Source: Chthoniobacteraceae bacterium
GTDB taxonomy: Bacteria; Verrucomicrobiota; Verrucomicrobiia; Chthoniobacterales; Chthoniobacteraceae
Assembly: GCA_947471505.1 (NCBI GenBank)
Contig: CANIWM010000015.1
Span: 1 to 64,000, forward strand
Direction of reading: 5' to 3'
DNA: 64,000 nucleotides
How positions within the stretch are numbered: the first letter of the stretch is position 1; every line of letters starts with the position of its first letter. Of the stretch, positions 6,674-44,427 are shown one piece after another. The notes beneath the pieces were generated by a model, which ran no database searches, had not been told where the DNA came from, and saw nothing but the letters and a program-made list of their open reading frames with translations. Both the position numbers and the translations under genes were made by a program.

Positions 6674-7657
6674 TTACGTATCCCAGCCCACGCGCGGGCT
6701 TTCTGGGCCGGTGCCGCGGCTGTTGCGGCCCCGCATCCAGAGTTCGTAGGTGATGCCGGGGTCGAATGTCACCCCTGCGGGCACGGTCACGGTGAGGGCG
6801 TCTTTTTCGCCGATGGCGAGCAGCTCGGGCATCCCGCCGGGGTGTTCGCGCCATAGCTCCAGGCGGGTGGCGTTTTCGGGCATGACGGCCACGGTTGCTG
6901 TGCGCGCGGTTTCATCCACGGTGGGCAGTCCGGGCGCGGCGGGCAGCGGAGGGGCTTCGCTGCGGATGAGGGCGAGGTCAAAGAGTTCGCCGATTTTGAA
7001 AGTGTCGTTGGGGTTGTTCCACACCGTCATGGCGATGCCGGTGTTGGCGAAGAGCTGCCAGGCGACCTCGACGCGTAGGGCTTCGAGGGCGTCGCGCGCG
7101 TCATCGAGGATGTTCTGCTTTTCCTCGCGGGTGTCGGCCAGTGTCTCGGCGGCGGCGTGGAAGGCGAGCACGGTGACGCTGAGTGCGATGAGCCCCGCTT
7201 TGCCAGTCTGTTCTTCGAGGCGGGTGGCGAAGTCTTTGAGTGCGCGGACGCGTTCGTCTTGTTTGCCCGCTGTGAGTGTCTCGCGGCCATGCGGGAGGAG
7301 GTAGGTATAGGTGGTGCCCTGGTAGGCGACGATACTGCGGATGGTGGAGTCCCAAGTCTCCAGCGGGCTGTTGGTGTCGAGGTCGGGCTTGCGGGTGAGG
7401 CTTTCGAGCTTATCCACTAGCGCGGCGGTGGCGGCGGGGATGGCGGCTTCGGCATTGGTGACGGCGCTTTCGATGGACTCCCACTGGGTGAGCTGTGTTT
7501 GTGTGGCGATGAAGAATGGGGTGAAGGTGTCTTTTTCATCGGCGGCGCGTTCGAGCTTCGGCGCGTGGTCACGGAGGATTTCGCCCATGAGGGGGATGCG
7601 TCCTTCGGTGACGGTGAGGAAGGTGTTGGCTTCAAATTTCCAAGGTTCGTTTGACAT
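6674..7657 (-). CDS. Unknown protein: helical N-terminal region and Fn3-like C-terminus
   Basis: A 327-residue protein without signal peptide or membrane segments. I do not recognise the family. Residues about 1-215 are predicted largely alpha-helical (repeated Ala/Leu/Glu-rich stretches such as LADTREEKQNILDDARDALEA). After a Pro-rich linker (PPLPAAPGLPTVDE) a beta-sandwich of about 85 residues follows, ending YELWMRGRNSRGTGPESP, a typical fibronectin type III terminal strand. The 42-bp tandem array begins about 40 bp upstream of its ATG. A short sequence at 44223-44303 beside the 21-bp array encodes a similar Fn3-like tail, so gene and array types may travel together. Confidence 0.75.
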   Translation of the reverse strand: MSNEPWKFEANTFLTVTEGRIPLMGEILRDHAPKLERAADEKDTFTPFFIATQTQLTQWESIESAVTNAEAAIPAATAALVDKLESLTRKPDLDTNSPLETWDSTIRSIVAYQGTTYTYLLPHGRETLTAGKQDERVRALKDFATRLEEQTGKAGLIALSVTVLAFHAAAETLADTREEKQNILDDARDALEALRVEVAWQLFANTGIAMTVWNNPNDTFKIGELFDLALIRSEAPPLPAAPGLPTVDETARTATVAVMPENATRLELWREHPGGMPELLAIGEKDALTVTVPAGVTFDPGITYELWMRGRNSRGTGPESPRVGWDT

Positions 7658-7698
7658 GGTGTTGGTAGTGTTATGTTGGTTGAGTCAGAGAAGGTTCC

Positions 7699-7931
7699 GG
7701 GACGCATCCGGTATATGTAAGATGCACTCGGGGATATTCCGGGACGCATCCGGTATATGAAAGATGGGCTCGGGAGGGTTCCGGGACGCATCCTGTATAT
7801 GAAAGATTGGCTCGGGAGGGTTCCGGGACGCATCCGATATATGAAAGATGGGCTCGGGAGGGTTCCGGGACGCATCCGATATATGAAAGATGGGCTCGGG
7901 AAGGTTCCCGGACGCATCCGGTATATGCCGG
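7699..7931. repeat. Tandem array of 42-bp units (5 full, 1 partial)
   Basis: Units start at 7699, 7741, 7783, 7825, 7867 and 7909 (partial), each beginning gggacgcatccggtatatg or a close variant; the second half begins agatgggctcggga. Copies are 85-98% identical to one another by eye and abut directly without spacers. The period is divisible by 3, so several frames are open and read as 14-residue repeats on either strand. The array lies between the unknown gene (ATG at 7657) and a stretch with no clear gene. Confidence 0.95.
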
Positions 7932-8444: not shown

Positions 8445-9773
8445 ATGCTCGCCCGCCTCCTTCAATTGTCGTTGCTGTTGGTTCTATTGCTTGCTCATTC
8501 AGCACGCGCGGATGAAATGAGGCCGTTCTTTCTGAAACCCGATCCGGCACGCGATGAGAAACTGCTTGGCGCGATGAAGGTGCTCTCGTCGGAACTGTTC
8601 CGAAATGGGGCGACTCCCAAGCTCGACCTCGATTCATTGATCGGTTTCCGGCAATCGGTCTTTTACGGACTGCAGTACAAAGACCCGGCTCGCGACGCTG
8701 CGATGGCGCACATTCAGCAGGTTTTACGAGATGCGGTTTGGGACATGGATATGGATGCGCTGCGCGACTTTACGGTCACGCGACCCAGTTTTTCGGGAAT
8801 GGAAATTCTACCTGTATTCTTTAGCCGCTGGATTCAAGAAGAGGTGGCGAAGGTCGTCAGCGATCCGAGTCTGAAGCCAGCCTTGGCACCGGACGCAGAG
8901 CCTCTGAAACCGTTATATCGGTCGGCTGAAATGTACCGCGAACGAGCCTCGACGCTGCCGTTTGCGAAGCTGAGAGCGTCGGTTGCGAAGTTGGGGGATC
9001 GCAGTCTTTCCGATGACCGCTTTTGGGACCGGGTTGTCGACGTGGTAATGCGTCGAAATCAGAACGTTGCCAATGAGTTGATGCGCTTTGCTTGGCTTTC
9101 AGACTGCGGCACTGGGGCCATTGAGTTTTATGATAAGAAAAATACTGCGGTCTTTATGGCGCTACTCCACGAACGGCGAATCGCGGAAGCCGTGGGTGCC
9201 AGTTTCGATGTGCCCTCGGTGCCGCTGTGGCTCCGGAAAAACGGCGCGGTCACTGAGCAATGGCGCATCGACCTATTGAAGTTTTGCGGCCTCGACTGGG
9301 AAGGCGAACTACTCGAGTCCGGCCTCGTCCGTGTGCTCGCGGCAAACGGCTCCGAGCGCGCGGCAAAAGCGTATCTTGCGGACGCTCTCTCCGGCGGAAA
9401 CGTGGCACAATTTGCTTTGGAATGTGCGTCTCAGTTTGTAGCCCCGCGAGAGAAGCCAGTAGTGGAATCAGCGGAGATTCCCGCGCCGACACAAGTCGCA
9501 ATTCTCGACGCAATCGCTGCGAAGATGGGCGAGGATATCGCGTTCTCGGACTTGACTGGTATGCTGCGGATCGCTGGTCGGCTGGGACGCCCAGAACTCA
9601 AGCCGGCTCTGCGGCGATTGTTGAGCCATCCGTCGACAACCATCCAAAAGGGCAGCGCGGAAGTGCTTCGGGAATATGGAGAGCAAATCGAACCGATTGC
9701 CGACGCTCCTCCGGTCATGTTCCGAGTGACGCTCAACGGCCAGCCCTTTGCTTCGAAGACGCTCCAGTTTTAG
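8445..9773 (+). CDS. Secreted HEAT-like protein, 5' part of a gene interrupted by TAG
   Basis: 442 residues with a clear signal peptide (hydrophobic run ending HSARA). The body is mostly alpha-helical; the segment near residues 385-425 (LTGMLRIAGRLGRPELKPALRRLL) resembles HEAT-like repeats. The last residues (VMFRVTLNGQPFASKTLQF) begin a beta-strand pattern of the kind seen in carboxypeptidase-regulatory or Cna-B-like domains, and are cut off by TAG at 9771-9773. The next codon, ATG 9774, continues the same frame. The two halves therefore look like one ancestral protein of about 782 residues. Function not recognised. Confidence 0.75.
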   Translation: MLARLLQLSLLLVLLLAHSARADEMRPFFLKPDPARDEKLLGAMKVLSSELFRNGATPKLDLDSLIGFRQSVFYGLQYKDPARDAAMAHIQQVLRDAVWDMDMDALRDFTVTRPSFSGMEILPVFFSRWIQEEVAKVVSDPSLKPALAPDAEPLKPLYRSAEMYRERASTLPFAKLRASVAKLGDRSLSDDRFWDRVVDVVMRRNQNVANELMRFAWLSDCGTGAIEFYDKKNTAVFMALLHERRIAEAVGASFDVPSVPLWLRKNGAVTEQWRIDLLKFCGLDWEGELLESGLVRVLAANGSERAAKAYLADALSGGNVAQFALECASQFVAPREKPVVESAEIPAPTQVAILDAIAAKMGEDIAFSDLTGMLRIAGRLGRPELKPALRRLLSHPSTTIQKGSAEVLREYGEQIEPIADAPPVMFRVTLNGQPFASKTLQF

Positions 9774-41732: not shown

Positions 41733-41834
41733 AGATTTCGGAAAAGTGGAAAGGGGCGGGAAAATAGCGGGCCGCACGCGCTTGCCAAGCGGCGAGTGTG
41801 TTTTTTTTCAAAAGCACAGACGCTGGAACAAAAC

Positions 41835-42114: not shown

Positions 42115-42312
42115 AGTCCGCCCGCCGAGAAACCCCACACCGCACCGCCAAACCAACCTCCGAACCCGAGCGAGCGGCGCAAAACGCCAGCGCCCCCTGC
42201 CTCACACAACCCCACTGAAGAACCGGACCGGTGGATCGCGTGAGGGCCGTAAGCCCTTTTACGCGACAACCGTGATGACACCGGGGCTTCGCGCAGATGC
42301 CATCAGAAAAGT

Positions 42313-42777
42313 TTAGGCGACTTGGTTGAGGTCGAAATACCACTCTCGATCATGTCTGATTCCTTTCAGGTAGCCGCGCTTGATAAGGTCGATGATCTCA
42401 AACTCGAGCAGGTTTGTAAGCGTGGAAGCTCGTGAGACGGGAATGGGATATTGCAGCGATGTGGGAAAACCGTCGAATCGGTTGGAGGGGATATGATCGG
42501 TGTCCTCGAATGGAAGACTGCGCAGAGAACTAAGTCTGCTGCGAATAGCCGCATCCTCTCGCGTGCGACGCTCCTCTGCTGTCTCGTTGCACTGCTGCAT
42601 CTCTGCGGCAAACTGCTCGAGGAGCTGATCGACTCGGAACTGGATATAAATTGCCTTGGTCTTCGCTTCATCCCCAAGCGCGGTGCTGAACGCCTTCGTC
42701 CACAAGCCAAGATTGACGTTCTTCGTGGCAATCTCTGCGCCTGCGATCTCGTAAAGTCTTTCTTCGACAGCGTTCAT
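42313..42777 (-). CDS. Unknown small protein, probable integron cassette gene
   Basis: 154 residues, no signal peptide. The N-terminus (LYEIAGAEIATKNVNLGLWTKAFSTALGDEAKTKAIYIQFRVDQL) is helical and of a kind seen in small uncharacterised proteins. The C-terminal half (LEFEIIDLIKRGYLKGIRHDREWYF) may fold with a short winged-helix-like part; this is tentative. Its ATG lies 22 bp after the conserved GTTAGGC end of an attC-like site, matching a cassette layout. Function unknown. Confidence 0.75.
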   Translation of the reverse strand: MNAVEERLYEIAGAEIATKNVNLGLWTKAFSTALGDEAKTKAIYIQFRVDQLLEQFAAEMQQCNETAEERRTREDAAIRSRLSSLRSLPFEDTDHIPSNRFDGFPTSLQYPIPVSRASTLTNLLEFEIIDLIKRGYLKGIRHDREWYFDLNQVA

Positions 42778-42799: not shown

Positions 42800-42918
42800 G
42801 CCTAACGACCCCAAGCTCAGCGACTCGCGGAGCTGGCGCGCTGGCTGCATGGCGGGGGAAAGGCGGTGGCAGGAAGCAGCCGCCGTGACGTGCGGAGCGC
42901 TGCAGTACATGGTTCGGC
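42800..42918 (-). other. attC-like recombination site 1
   Basis: On the minus strand the site runs from GCCGAAC (42912-42918, one mismatch to RYYYAAC) to GTTAGGC (42800-42806, fits GTTRRRY). It is an imperfect palindrome of about 119 bp with arms sharing cagcg-ctc. It begins 7 bp after the stop of the upstream gene and ends about 22 bp before the next ATG, as in integron gene cassettes. No integron integrase gene is in the window. Confidence 0.6.
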
Positions 42919-42925
42919 GTTGCGG

Positions 42926-43546
42926 TCATTGGTAGTTGTCCCCCGCAGTGTGCTTCTCGTCGAGGTAGGCGGAAATCCCGATGCTCGCAGAATCCAAGAG
43001 GGACGCGATACGCCCCATGACTTCGGCGAGGTGGCGTAGATTGATGTGCTTCACGGCGGGGAGTGACGGCTTGCCGTCCTTTGTGACGGGATAGCGGAAG
43101 CTCATGGACTGCAGGTCGAGCTGGCAAAACTCGTTGATGCACTCGCCGACCACGCCCAAATCGGTCTTGGAACCGGTGGGCCAAATCCGCTCAAGCAGTT
43201 GCCGAGTGGAACTCCAGAGAATGTCGATGCGATGGACGTGTTTGAGGTCTGCTGGCGCATCTACTAACTCCTGGCCGGAAATGATGAGCTCCTTGAGACG
43301 GAGTTCGAGGTAGTGGCGATACAGAAACGCGACGGGATAAATGAGGGTGTCCATGCCACGGTGCGTATCGACAACTCGCTCAACGATGATGTCTGCTGCT
43401 TCCTTGTAGCCCGTCGCATACGCATCCCATTTGTTGCTGGCGAAGTTGAGACACGCGTTGTGCCACCAGTCAGTATCCGGCGCGAATAACTTGTCCCCGG
43501 CAATCGGCCAAGGCATCTCGTCTGAATCGGCTTCTTCTGCGTTCAT
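42926..43546 (-). CDS. Unknown protein, probable integron cassette gene
   Basis: 206 residues, soluble. The segment YPVAFLYRHYLELRLKELIISGQEL is a helical motif of a type found in HEPN-like or related small uncharacterised proteins, but I would not assign a function from that alone. Base composition is less GC-rich in places than the surrounding genes, consistent with acquisition. It is flanked on both sides by attC-like sites on the same strand. Confidence 0.75.
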   Translation of the reverse strand: MNAEEADSDEMPWPIAGDKLFAPDTDWWHNACLNFASNKWDAYATGYKEAADIIVERVVDTHRGMDTLIYPVAFLYRHYLELRLKELIISGQELVDAPADLKHVHRIDILWSSTRQLLERIWPTGSKTDLGVVGECINEFCQLDLQSMSFRYPVTKDGKPSLPAVKHINLRHLAEVMGRIASLLDSASIGISAYLDEKHTAGDNYQ

Positions 43547-43567
43547 TTACAGGAGGCGTGTAGCATC

Positions 43568-43641
43568 GCCTAACGACTGAATCACCGACAAACCTGTTGG
43601 TTTTACGCAGAGCGCCTTTATGGGCGACTGGTTTGTTGGGT
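43568..43641 (-). other. attC-like recombination site 2
   Basis: On the minus strand it runs from ACCCAAC (43635-43641, fits RYYYAAC) to GTTAGGC (43568-43574, fits GTTRRRY), 74 bp, followed after about 21 bp by the ATG of the 206-residue gene. Both attC-like sites end GTCGTTAGGCGA. The middle forms an imperfect hairpin. Confidence 0.65.
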
Positions 43642-43966
43642 GAGCACAGGTTCTGGCGTTCATGGGGGCGGTTTAAGCGCAAAAGACGGAATCGGACAGC
43701 AAAAAATCCTTGGCTCTTATACGCATGGGCGGTCTAAATCCTACGAAAGTAATCCACGACGATCATTAAAGAACATGGACGACTAGTTCACCACCCTGGA
43801 CGGGCGGACGGCTGCGGTGGCCTCCTTGGAGGCATCGTAAGTGCGGCCGGTCGGCAGATGGGAATTGTCGGCTGCGTAAAGCCCGTGACCTCCTGGAAGG
43901 CTCCCAAGGGGCTTTGGCTCGTGTGGGGATGGATAAATACTATCCATCCTGCCCCCCGGACGTTCC
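43642..43966. other. Intergenic region with a palindrome and a possible gene remnant
   Basis: A near-perfect palindrome ggatggata-N5-tatccatcc lies at 43927-43949. A minus-strand frame from the array into this region ends at 43783 with a plausible protein-like tail (GHGLYAADNSHLPTGRTYD...). It has no recognised domain and could be the 3' end of a degraded gene. No other feature is seen. Confidence 0.4.
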
Positions 43967-43967
43967 A

Positions 43968-44177
43968 GACAGGTCCCCGTCCCCTCCAGACAGGTTCCCG
44001 TGGTCGCCAGACAGGCTCCCGTGCTCGCCAGACAAGCTCCCGTGCTCGCCAGACAGGCTCCCGTGCTCGCCAGACAGGCTCCCGTGCTCGCCAGACAGGT
44101 CCCCGTGCTCGCCAGACAGGTCCCCGTGCTTTCCAGATAGCCTCCCGCCCGCTCCAGACGGCATCCCTTTTCCCCCG
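43968..44177. repeat. 21-bp tandem array (about 9 full units)
   Basis: Units start at 43968 and every 21 bp to 44136, with a decayed unit after that. The consensus begins gacaggctcccgtgctcgc. Units 5 and 6 are identical and the outermost ones decay. Repeats abut with no spacer. Read on the minus strand they give seven-residue repeats (SLSGEHG); both strands are open simply because of the period. Confidence 0.95.
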
Positions 44178-44184
44178 GCTTAGG

Positions 44185-44427
44185 CGACTCTTTCGCAGCA
44201 GGTGACCGACACGATCTTTGAGCAAGCAGAGGTGAAGTTCCGCACGCGCGAGACGAACGCGACGGGCGAGGTGTTTTCGCCGGAGCAGTCGATCTCGATG
44301 TAAGGCGAGCGAGGGGGGCGGGGCTTGGGAAGGCCCCGCTCCTTTTTGGACTCAAGGCAAAGAAAGCACCGCCCTCCGCAGCTATTTCATCGACCCCATC
44401 CGGATTTTTTGAGGATAAATCGCGCAC
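44185..44427 (+). other. Possible 3' remnant of an Fn3-type gene, then leader of uxaC
   Basis: Bases 44223-44303 can encode QAEVKFRTRETNATGEVF then SPEQSISM and a stop. This resembles the C-terminal Fn3 tail of the protein at 6674-7657 (RGR..SRGTGPESP), but TAG at 44220 interrupts the frame upstream. It is a low-confidence pseudogene fragment. The following 120 bp up to the uxaC ATG contain no clear gene. Confidence 0.35.

Follow-up and report, generated by a model that had tools for sequence, protein, structure and literature searches.

An integron normally comprises one integrase gene and one attI site, and the box names R′, R″, L′ and L″ are used here in their customary sense, which is also that of the integron papers cited. 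Clusters of attC sites lacking an integrase (CALINs) are delimited in the default setting of IntegronFinder 2 as at least two attC sites without intI, and attI sites outside class 1 are not searched for by that program (passages of PMC9024848). CALINs are described as arising by loss of intI and by rearrangement (passages of PMC8618304), and extracts of the literature cover CALIN origins, insertion at ordinary genomic sites (attG), delta-attI cassettes and the recognition of attI as double-stranded DNA (PMC8618304, PMC12444791, PMC12901181, PMC4792948, PMC9892861, PMC9668308, PMC9024848). In the delta-attI cassettes of class 1/2 integrons, the attC that would follow the gene is replaced by a truncated attI (extract of PMC12901181). 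No description of dispersed orphan attI sites was found in the open-access PMC papers searched.

The locus analyzed here lies in a 64,000-nucleotide stretch of DNA (the window). Like a CALIN, it has an attC site and cassette genes in one orientation with no intI nearby; unlike the CALIN-like remnant that the first-pass annotation had proposed, it contains a single attC supported by our hold-out model (R3, below), against the two of the IntegronFinder 2 default, and a conserved leader, no part of the CALIN definition, precedes its first cassette. Like attI1 and other attI sites, this leader is non-palindromic, lies upstream of the first cassette and has one GTTRRRY box where the cassette is joined, but it lies away from intI, occurs in many copies per genome and appears only weakly similar to the intI-adjacent attI sites of the family. 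Secondary (attG) sites likewise receive insertions away from intI, whereas the leader is long and conserved and is no ordinary genomic sequence. Delta-attI cassettes also carry attI sequence outside its usual place (extract of PMC12901181); the leader, in contrast, lies upstream of the gene and intI is absent.

What was not expected is the leader: genomes carry many copies of this attI-like site, none with its integrase beside it. We put at roughly 0.7 the probability that the locus is an integron cassette array of two genes joined to an orphan attI-like site, which IntI would have filled in trans.

Structure of the Locus

Two minus-strand open reading frames (ORFs) are present as first annotated, at 42313-42777 (154 aa) and 42926-43546 (206 aa), each with its ATG about 22 nt after a minus-strand GTTAGGC box (42800-42806 and 43568-43574, respectively). 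These boxes are the only exact GTTAGGC/GCCTAAC occurrences in the window. The box at 43568-43574 (site A) has an RYYYAAC-like partner, ACCCAAC, at 43635-43641, and that at 42800-42806 (site B) has GCCGAAC at 42912-42918, 8 nt past the stop of the 206-aa gene. The features of the locus are, in order of minus-strand reading:

43965-44130, no strand: tandem repeat with 21/63-bp period, upstream of the leader (repeat scan)
43568-43707, minus strand: conserved attI-like leader (model R1, 136.9 bits)
43568-43574, minus strand: GTTAGGC core box at the junction between leader homology and locus-specific sequence
42926-43546, minus strand: first cassette gene, 206 aa, predicted HEPN-like helical fold (ORF, structure model, homologues)
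42800-42918, minus strand: attC site B, slightly decayed, with R″ GCCGAAC at 42912-42918 and R′ GTTAGGC at 42800-42806 (hold-out model R3)
42313-42777, minus strand: second cassette gene, 154 aa (ORF)
42149-42327, minus strand: repeated 3′ element (the "tail") behind the second cassette gene (recurs in this genome and in relatives)

The chromosomal neighbors include, by Pfam, clpX and genes for glucuronate isomerase, a penicillin-binding protein and a VTC-domain protein, and further ORFs that we take, from reading them, to be clpP, tig and pilin-like genes. An empty-site comparison at the tig-uxaC gap was abandoned, as the closest relative has a different neighbor there and homology ends at 41817. 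Between the tandem repeat and uxaC, a plus-strand open frame at 44196-44302, ending ...FEQAEVKFRTRETNATGEVFSPEQSISM, looks by eye like what is left of the C-terminal part of a broken gene.

Site B and Related attC Sites

The first-pass annotation had interpreted both boxes as attC-like sites of the same kind and had suggested an attC covariance search. In that search, a minus-strand match to site B (65.4 bits, E 6e-17) was given by R3, a covariance model of 14 intI-adjacent attC sites from genomes G024, G003, G028 and G016 from which the present genome was excluded; that half of the interpretation stands, and with it the arrangement of cassette genes in cassette orientation with an attC between them. 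An earlier model (R2) had included the window site, and its 104.7 bits for site B are not counted. R3 matches two other attC sites in this genome (61.8 and 36.8 bits). Two genomes, the congener G003 and G024, have arrays of the attC family of site B (GCCTAACCATGCGCTGCAGCGAAC...GTCGCTGAGCTTGGGGTCGTTAGGC) beside intI; in the G003 locus, L114, attC sites lie between 4556 and 8119 and intI at 8796-9725.

In site B, R″ is altered by one change (GCCGAAC) and about five bases of one arm are missing, and the site is probably weakened as an attC. The attC sites of G024 and G003 that were tried fold to a full hairpin; the DNA folding energy of site B is no better than that of shuffled sequences (z 0.8 and 0.4 for the two strands), so the case for attC rests on the covariance model and on homology. 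Judged on its sequence, site B is a real, slightly decayed attC. No Rfam match was obtained anywhere in the window.

The attC at L029 12016-12058 (36.8 bits, R3) is 43 bp long, shorter than the usual attC, and lacks a variable loop.

Site A and the Leader

The other half of the first interpretation fell: site A is the end of the leader. An attC at site A was rejected on the grounds that it has no match at E ≤ 10 in the R3 search, that its R″ and R′ are unpaired in the predicted minimum-energy fold of either strand, even with the outer pair requested, and that an alignment of 15 homologues contains no covarying stem; its DNA folding energy relative to shuffles is modest (z −1.0 and −2.3 for the two strands). 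Searching this genome with the region of site A returned copies on other contigs at 95, 92, 76, and 75% identity. Site A is the 3′ end of a non-palindromic, non-coding leader of 140-300 bp that closes with GTTAGGC.

The window leader is 89.6% identical over 297 bp to the copy on C28 and 91.8% over 230 bp to that on C23, and its homology with another copy in this genome extends to about 43864. Conservation sits upstream of the box and ends there; beyond the box each copy has another gene. The sequence after G/TT differs among leaders (AGGC, CGGC, CGCC, AGTC and others), as is expected if it arrives with the cassette. Its place immediately before the first cassette, its end at G/TTRRRY and its non-palindromic sequence are attI-like features of the leader.

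Other identities for the leader were considered and set aside. A structured RNA was rejected, as the alignment yields only three unsupported pairs and no conserved stem. A small coding gene was rejected on even codon-position differences (914, 894, and 966 in 15 in-frame copies) and on frameshifts elsewhere; an ATG followed by a 28-codon frame is retained in many copies. A 42-bp internal repeat was dropped, its direct-repeat signal being weak. No sigma-70-like promoter was found.

Model R1, built from 15 of the leader copies, has 39 matches in 8 of 40 genomes of the family: nine each in this genome and G001, seven in G009, four in G007, three each in G005, G006, and G020, and one in G008. Two of the 39 are partial (G006:C65 and C18), one of them among the nine of this genome. 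Across the order, matches occur in the same eight genomes only, of 197 searched. Scores are listed for 38 leaders (the partial G006:C65 left out), and the flank, ORF, repeat and shared-position analyses used 36 copies, without G006:C65, the partial C18 and the divergent second copy G009:C192. A search of viral contigs with one strict pattern returned no leader.

Cassettes could have been inserted by an IntI encoded elsewhere at ordinary genomic (attG) sites; insertion by IntI outside attC and attI is documented in extracts of PMC12444791 and PMC12901181. The sites considered here have a leader of about 140-210 bp in common, and such off-target insertion is characterized in an extract of PMC12444791 as broad and less site-specific in Xanthomonas. 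We therefore disfavor the attG account and regard it as very improbable.

Two further observations concern leader variation. The leaders at L194 8307-8442 (G008) and L192 8350-8488 (G020), from different genera, are 93.5% identical over about 186 bp, which exceeds the identity of most within-genus leader pairs and, from the sequences, makes horizontal transfer possible. The 5′ half of the leader stands alone at L103 8480-8542 and L110 10355-10402, in gene neighborhoods of G000 and G006 that look similar by eye, and the leader may have two separable parts.

Genes and attC Sites Downstream of Leaders

An ORF of at least 300 nt begins within 60 nt of the box at 32 of 36 leaders, compared with 530 of 1440 positions drawn at random from these loci. 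DNA shared among the 1.5-kb regions downstream of leaders is limited to short stretches, with no homology across the downstream genes; where examined, these stretches are attC- or tail-type repeats behind genes. In the leader loci, 14 of 15 attC matches (R3, E ≤ 0.02) lie downstream of a leader on the same strand within 3 kb; random placement gives an expectation of 1.9 and never reached 14 in 200,000 trials. The exception is L182 (E 0.0024). The weakest three of the 15 are at L097, L176, and L184 (E 0.0037 to 0.02), and the second sites of L181 and L194 have E between 0.001 and 0.013. Matches in the leaderless loci C21 and C3 were dropped, as were those above the threshold (two in L034, L192 9754, L107). 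An attC at this threshold follows 12 of 36 leaders, with none found after the others. Loci were chosen for a leader or tail match, and the flank statistics hold for those loci only.

Apart from the window genes, 5 of 30 first genes behind leaders exceed a Pfam cut-off (HNH nuclease, EcsC, SUKH, DUF2513, and DUF2750), two have sub-threshold matches only (L097, LRR; L197, carbohydrate-enzyme families) and 23 have no Pfam match. Whole-locus comparison revealed three positions at which different species have the upstream neighborhood and leader in common but differ in the first gene: G001_L188/G005_L196, with a common 908-bp upstream gene (81% identity); G001_L189/G007_L175, with 2254 bp in common (86%) and several kb between the common pieces in G007; and G000_L032/G006_L104, with 526 bp in common upstream (81%). 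The last is the weakest of the three, since much of its common stretch is tandem repeat and the genes far downstream differ. The pair G000_L097/G009_L181 was left uncounted as a shared position: it has in common the leader and a downstream VapBC-like pair (by eye), a stretch that may be a shared cassette.

These downstream contents bear on a rival view in which the leader, unconnected with IntI, would be a non-coding repeat (MITE- or REP-like) or mobile promoter dispersed through the genome and found upstream of genes by chance. Its scattered, multi-copy and lineage-restricted distribution, in genomes that are repeat-rich, would suit such an element. Against a repeat of this kind count the lack of a conserved stem, homology that ends at G/TTRRRY, the same-strand attC downstream in 14 of 15 cases and the absence from most relatives of the two genes behind the window leader, and we consider it improbable.

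Integrases and the Filling of Leaders

The absence of an integrase noted in the first annotation extends to the whole assembly (96.7% complete), in which TIGR02249, the integron integrase model, has no match over its cut-off and none at E ≤ 1e-30; PF00589 identifies three tyrosine recombinases, two of which are, as we read them, probably Xer and the third of which has 382 aa. TIGR02249 matches over cut-off occur in 18 of the 57 genomes searched, including the same-genus G002, G003, and G007; the match in G008 is below cut-off. Two of the eight leader-bearing genomes have a detected intI (G007 and G008), on contigs other than those of the leaders, and none of the 39 leaders shares a contig with a detected intI. 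The window holds no complete integron, there being no adjacent intI.

The leader core was compared with six intI-adjacent attI sites, whose boundaries were chosen by the analyst, giving p values of 0.007, 0.012, 0.053, 0.09, 0.42, and 0.54 (combined 0.0012). By this comparison of sequences, the leader core appears weakly to resemble the intI-adjacent attI sites of the family.

The best reading takes the leaders for orphan attI-like docking sites scattered through the genome, with one to a few cassettes at each, which were filled in trans or before the integrase was lost. We infer recombination at the leaders, and filling by IntI in trans is the account of it that is best supported. The leader would be recognized as double-stranded DNA, in the manner of attI, by an IntI acting in trans; this enzyme would since have been lost, be missing from the assembly or come from relatives. 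This IntI would join the G of the leader to the TT of a folded, single-stranded attC on a circular cassette; joining at G/TT would place the cassette gene within some tens of nt of the leader, oriented so that a promoter inside or before the leader could express it. Several findings weigh against this reading: no intI is found in this genome or on any leader contig, and only two of the eight leader genomes have one detected; the leader core is at best weakly like the intI-adjacent attI sites; an attC match follows only 12 of 36 leaders; the tail differs from a normal attC; no sigma-70-like promoter was found; and the direct-repeat signal within the leader is weak.

A plain fossil origin is a rival account: ordinary integrons once present in the genus would have lost intI, rearrangement would have scattered fragments of attI plus array, and each leader would be a dead attI at which recombination no longer occurs. 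CALINs produced by intI loss and rearrangement are on record (extract of PMC8618304), intI is absent from this genome and from six of the eight leader genomes, and the attC sites at site B and on C21 are decayed. Harder to reconcile with relics are the up to nine leaders per genome with no intI match on any leader contig, the different genes at the three positions common to species, and the attI sites beside the intI genes found, which do not clearly match the leader. We consider a purely fossil origin unlikely, and return to the docking-site reading.

A broader form of that reading is tentative, at somewhat less than even odds: a distributed integron, in which many attI-like sites scattered over the chromosome receive cassettes in trans by way of an integrase that is encoded at another place or present only now and then, and cassette capture no longer depends on an intI-attI pair. 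If so, integrase-less cassette clusters would not be only debris, sequence alone would allow attI to be detected in an uncultured group, and the leaders would offer a ready set of sites for testing cassette destinations and the expression of several first-position cassettes at once.

Cassette Proteins

The first-pass annotation would have been contradicted by the same genes in all relatives; instead, the 206-aa gene has a match in 1 of 56 relatives searched (27% identity, a different family) and the 154-aa gene weak, partial matches in 2 of 53. Neither window gene has a Pfam match over cut-off. Relatives of the 206-aa protein occur in 340 plasmid records (<60% identity) and, across several phyla, in 11 genome contigs; the phage set has none. 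Its structure model (pLDDT 89) has no Foldseek match at E ≤ 0.001; the first 11 VIA-align rows are of HEPN or HEPN/MNT toxin-antitoxin type at Z 8.9-10.6, in a range (Z < 13) that is weak for helical bundles. The predicted product of the first cassette may thus have a HEPN-like fold. PADLOC, applied to 12 members of the 206-aa family, gave a single weak match (E 0.0049), to a member other than the window protein. The 154-aa protein has one partial plasmid match and no family match over cut-off.

The Tail and Other Repeats

Copies of the tail at 42149-42327 are found at several other sites of this genome and in relatives. Its outer ends are attC-like (GCCT...AGGC) and stand after the usual cassette-end sequence; its inner end has no GTTRRRY core in the aligned copies. 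A standard attC was rejected for the tail, which lacks that core and has no R3 match at E ≤ 10 in the window.

A repeated element starting CCTATGAAAGGTGTCAAGGTGG lies directly behind attC R″-like ends at L041 1960, L046 1500, L095 141, L127 1126, and L153 1092. It occurs in G007 and G001, in an intI-linked array as well as behind leaders, and may be an insertion that targets attC.

Tandem repeats with a period of 21, 42, or 63 bp and differing unit sequences lie 150-1700 bp upstream of leaders. They precede 15 of the 32 leaders that have enough flank, among them the window leader (43965-44130) and those of L032, L104, L109, L030, L176, L178, L181, L182, L184, L187, L188, and L189; tandem repeats make up 7% of bases upstream of leaders, 0.27% of the rest of the same loci and 0.7% of control loci. 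The window repeat possibly accompanies the leader. Elsewhere in the window, with no leader near, a tandem repeat of 42-bp period (7693-7927) begins about 36 bp before the start of an ORF of 327 aa on the minus strand (6674-7657), and repeats resembling it precede ORFs in L032 and L097.
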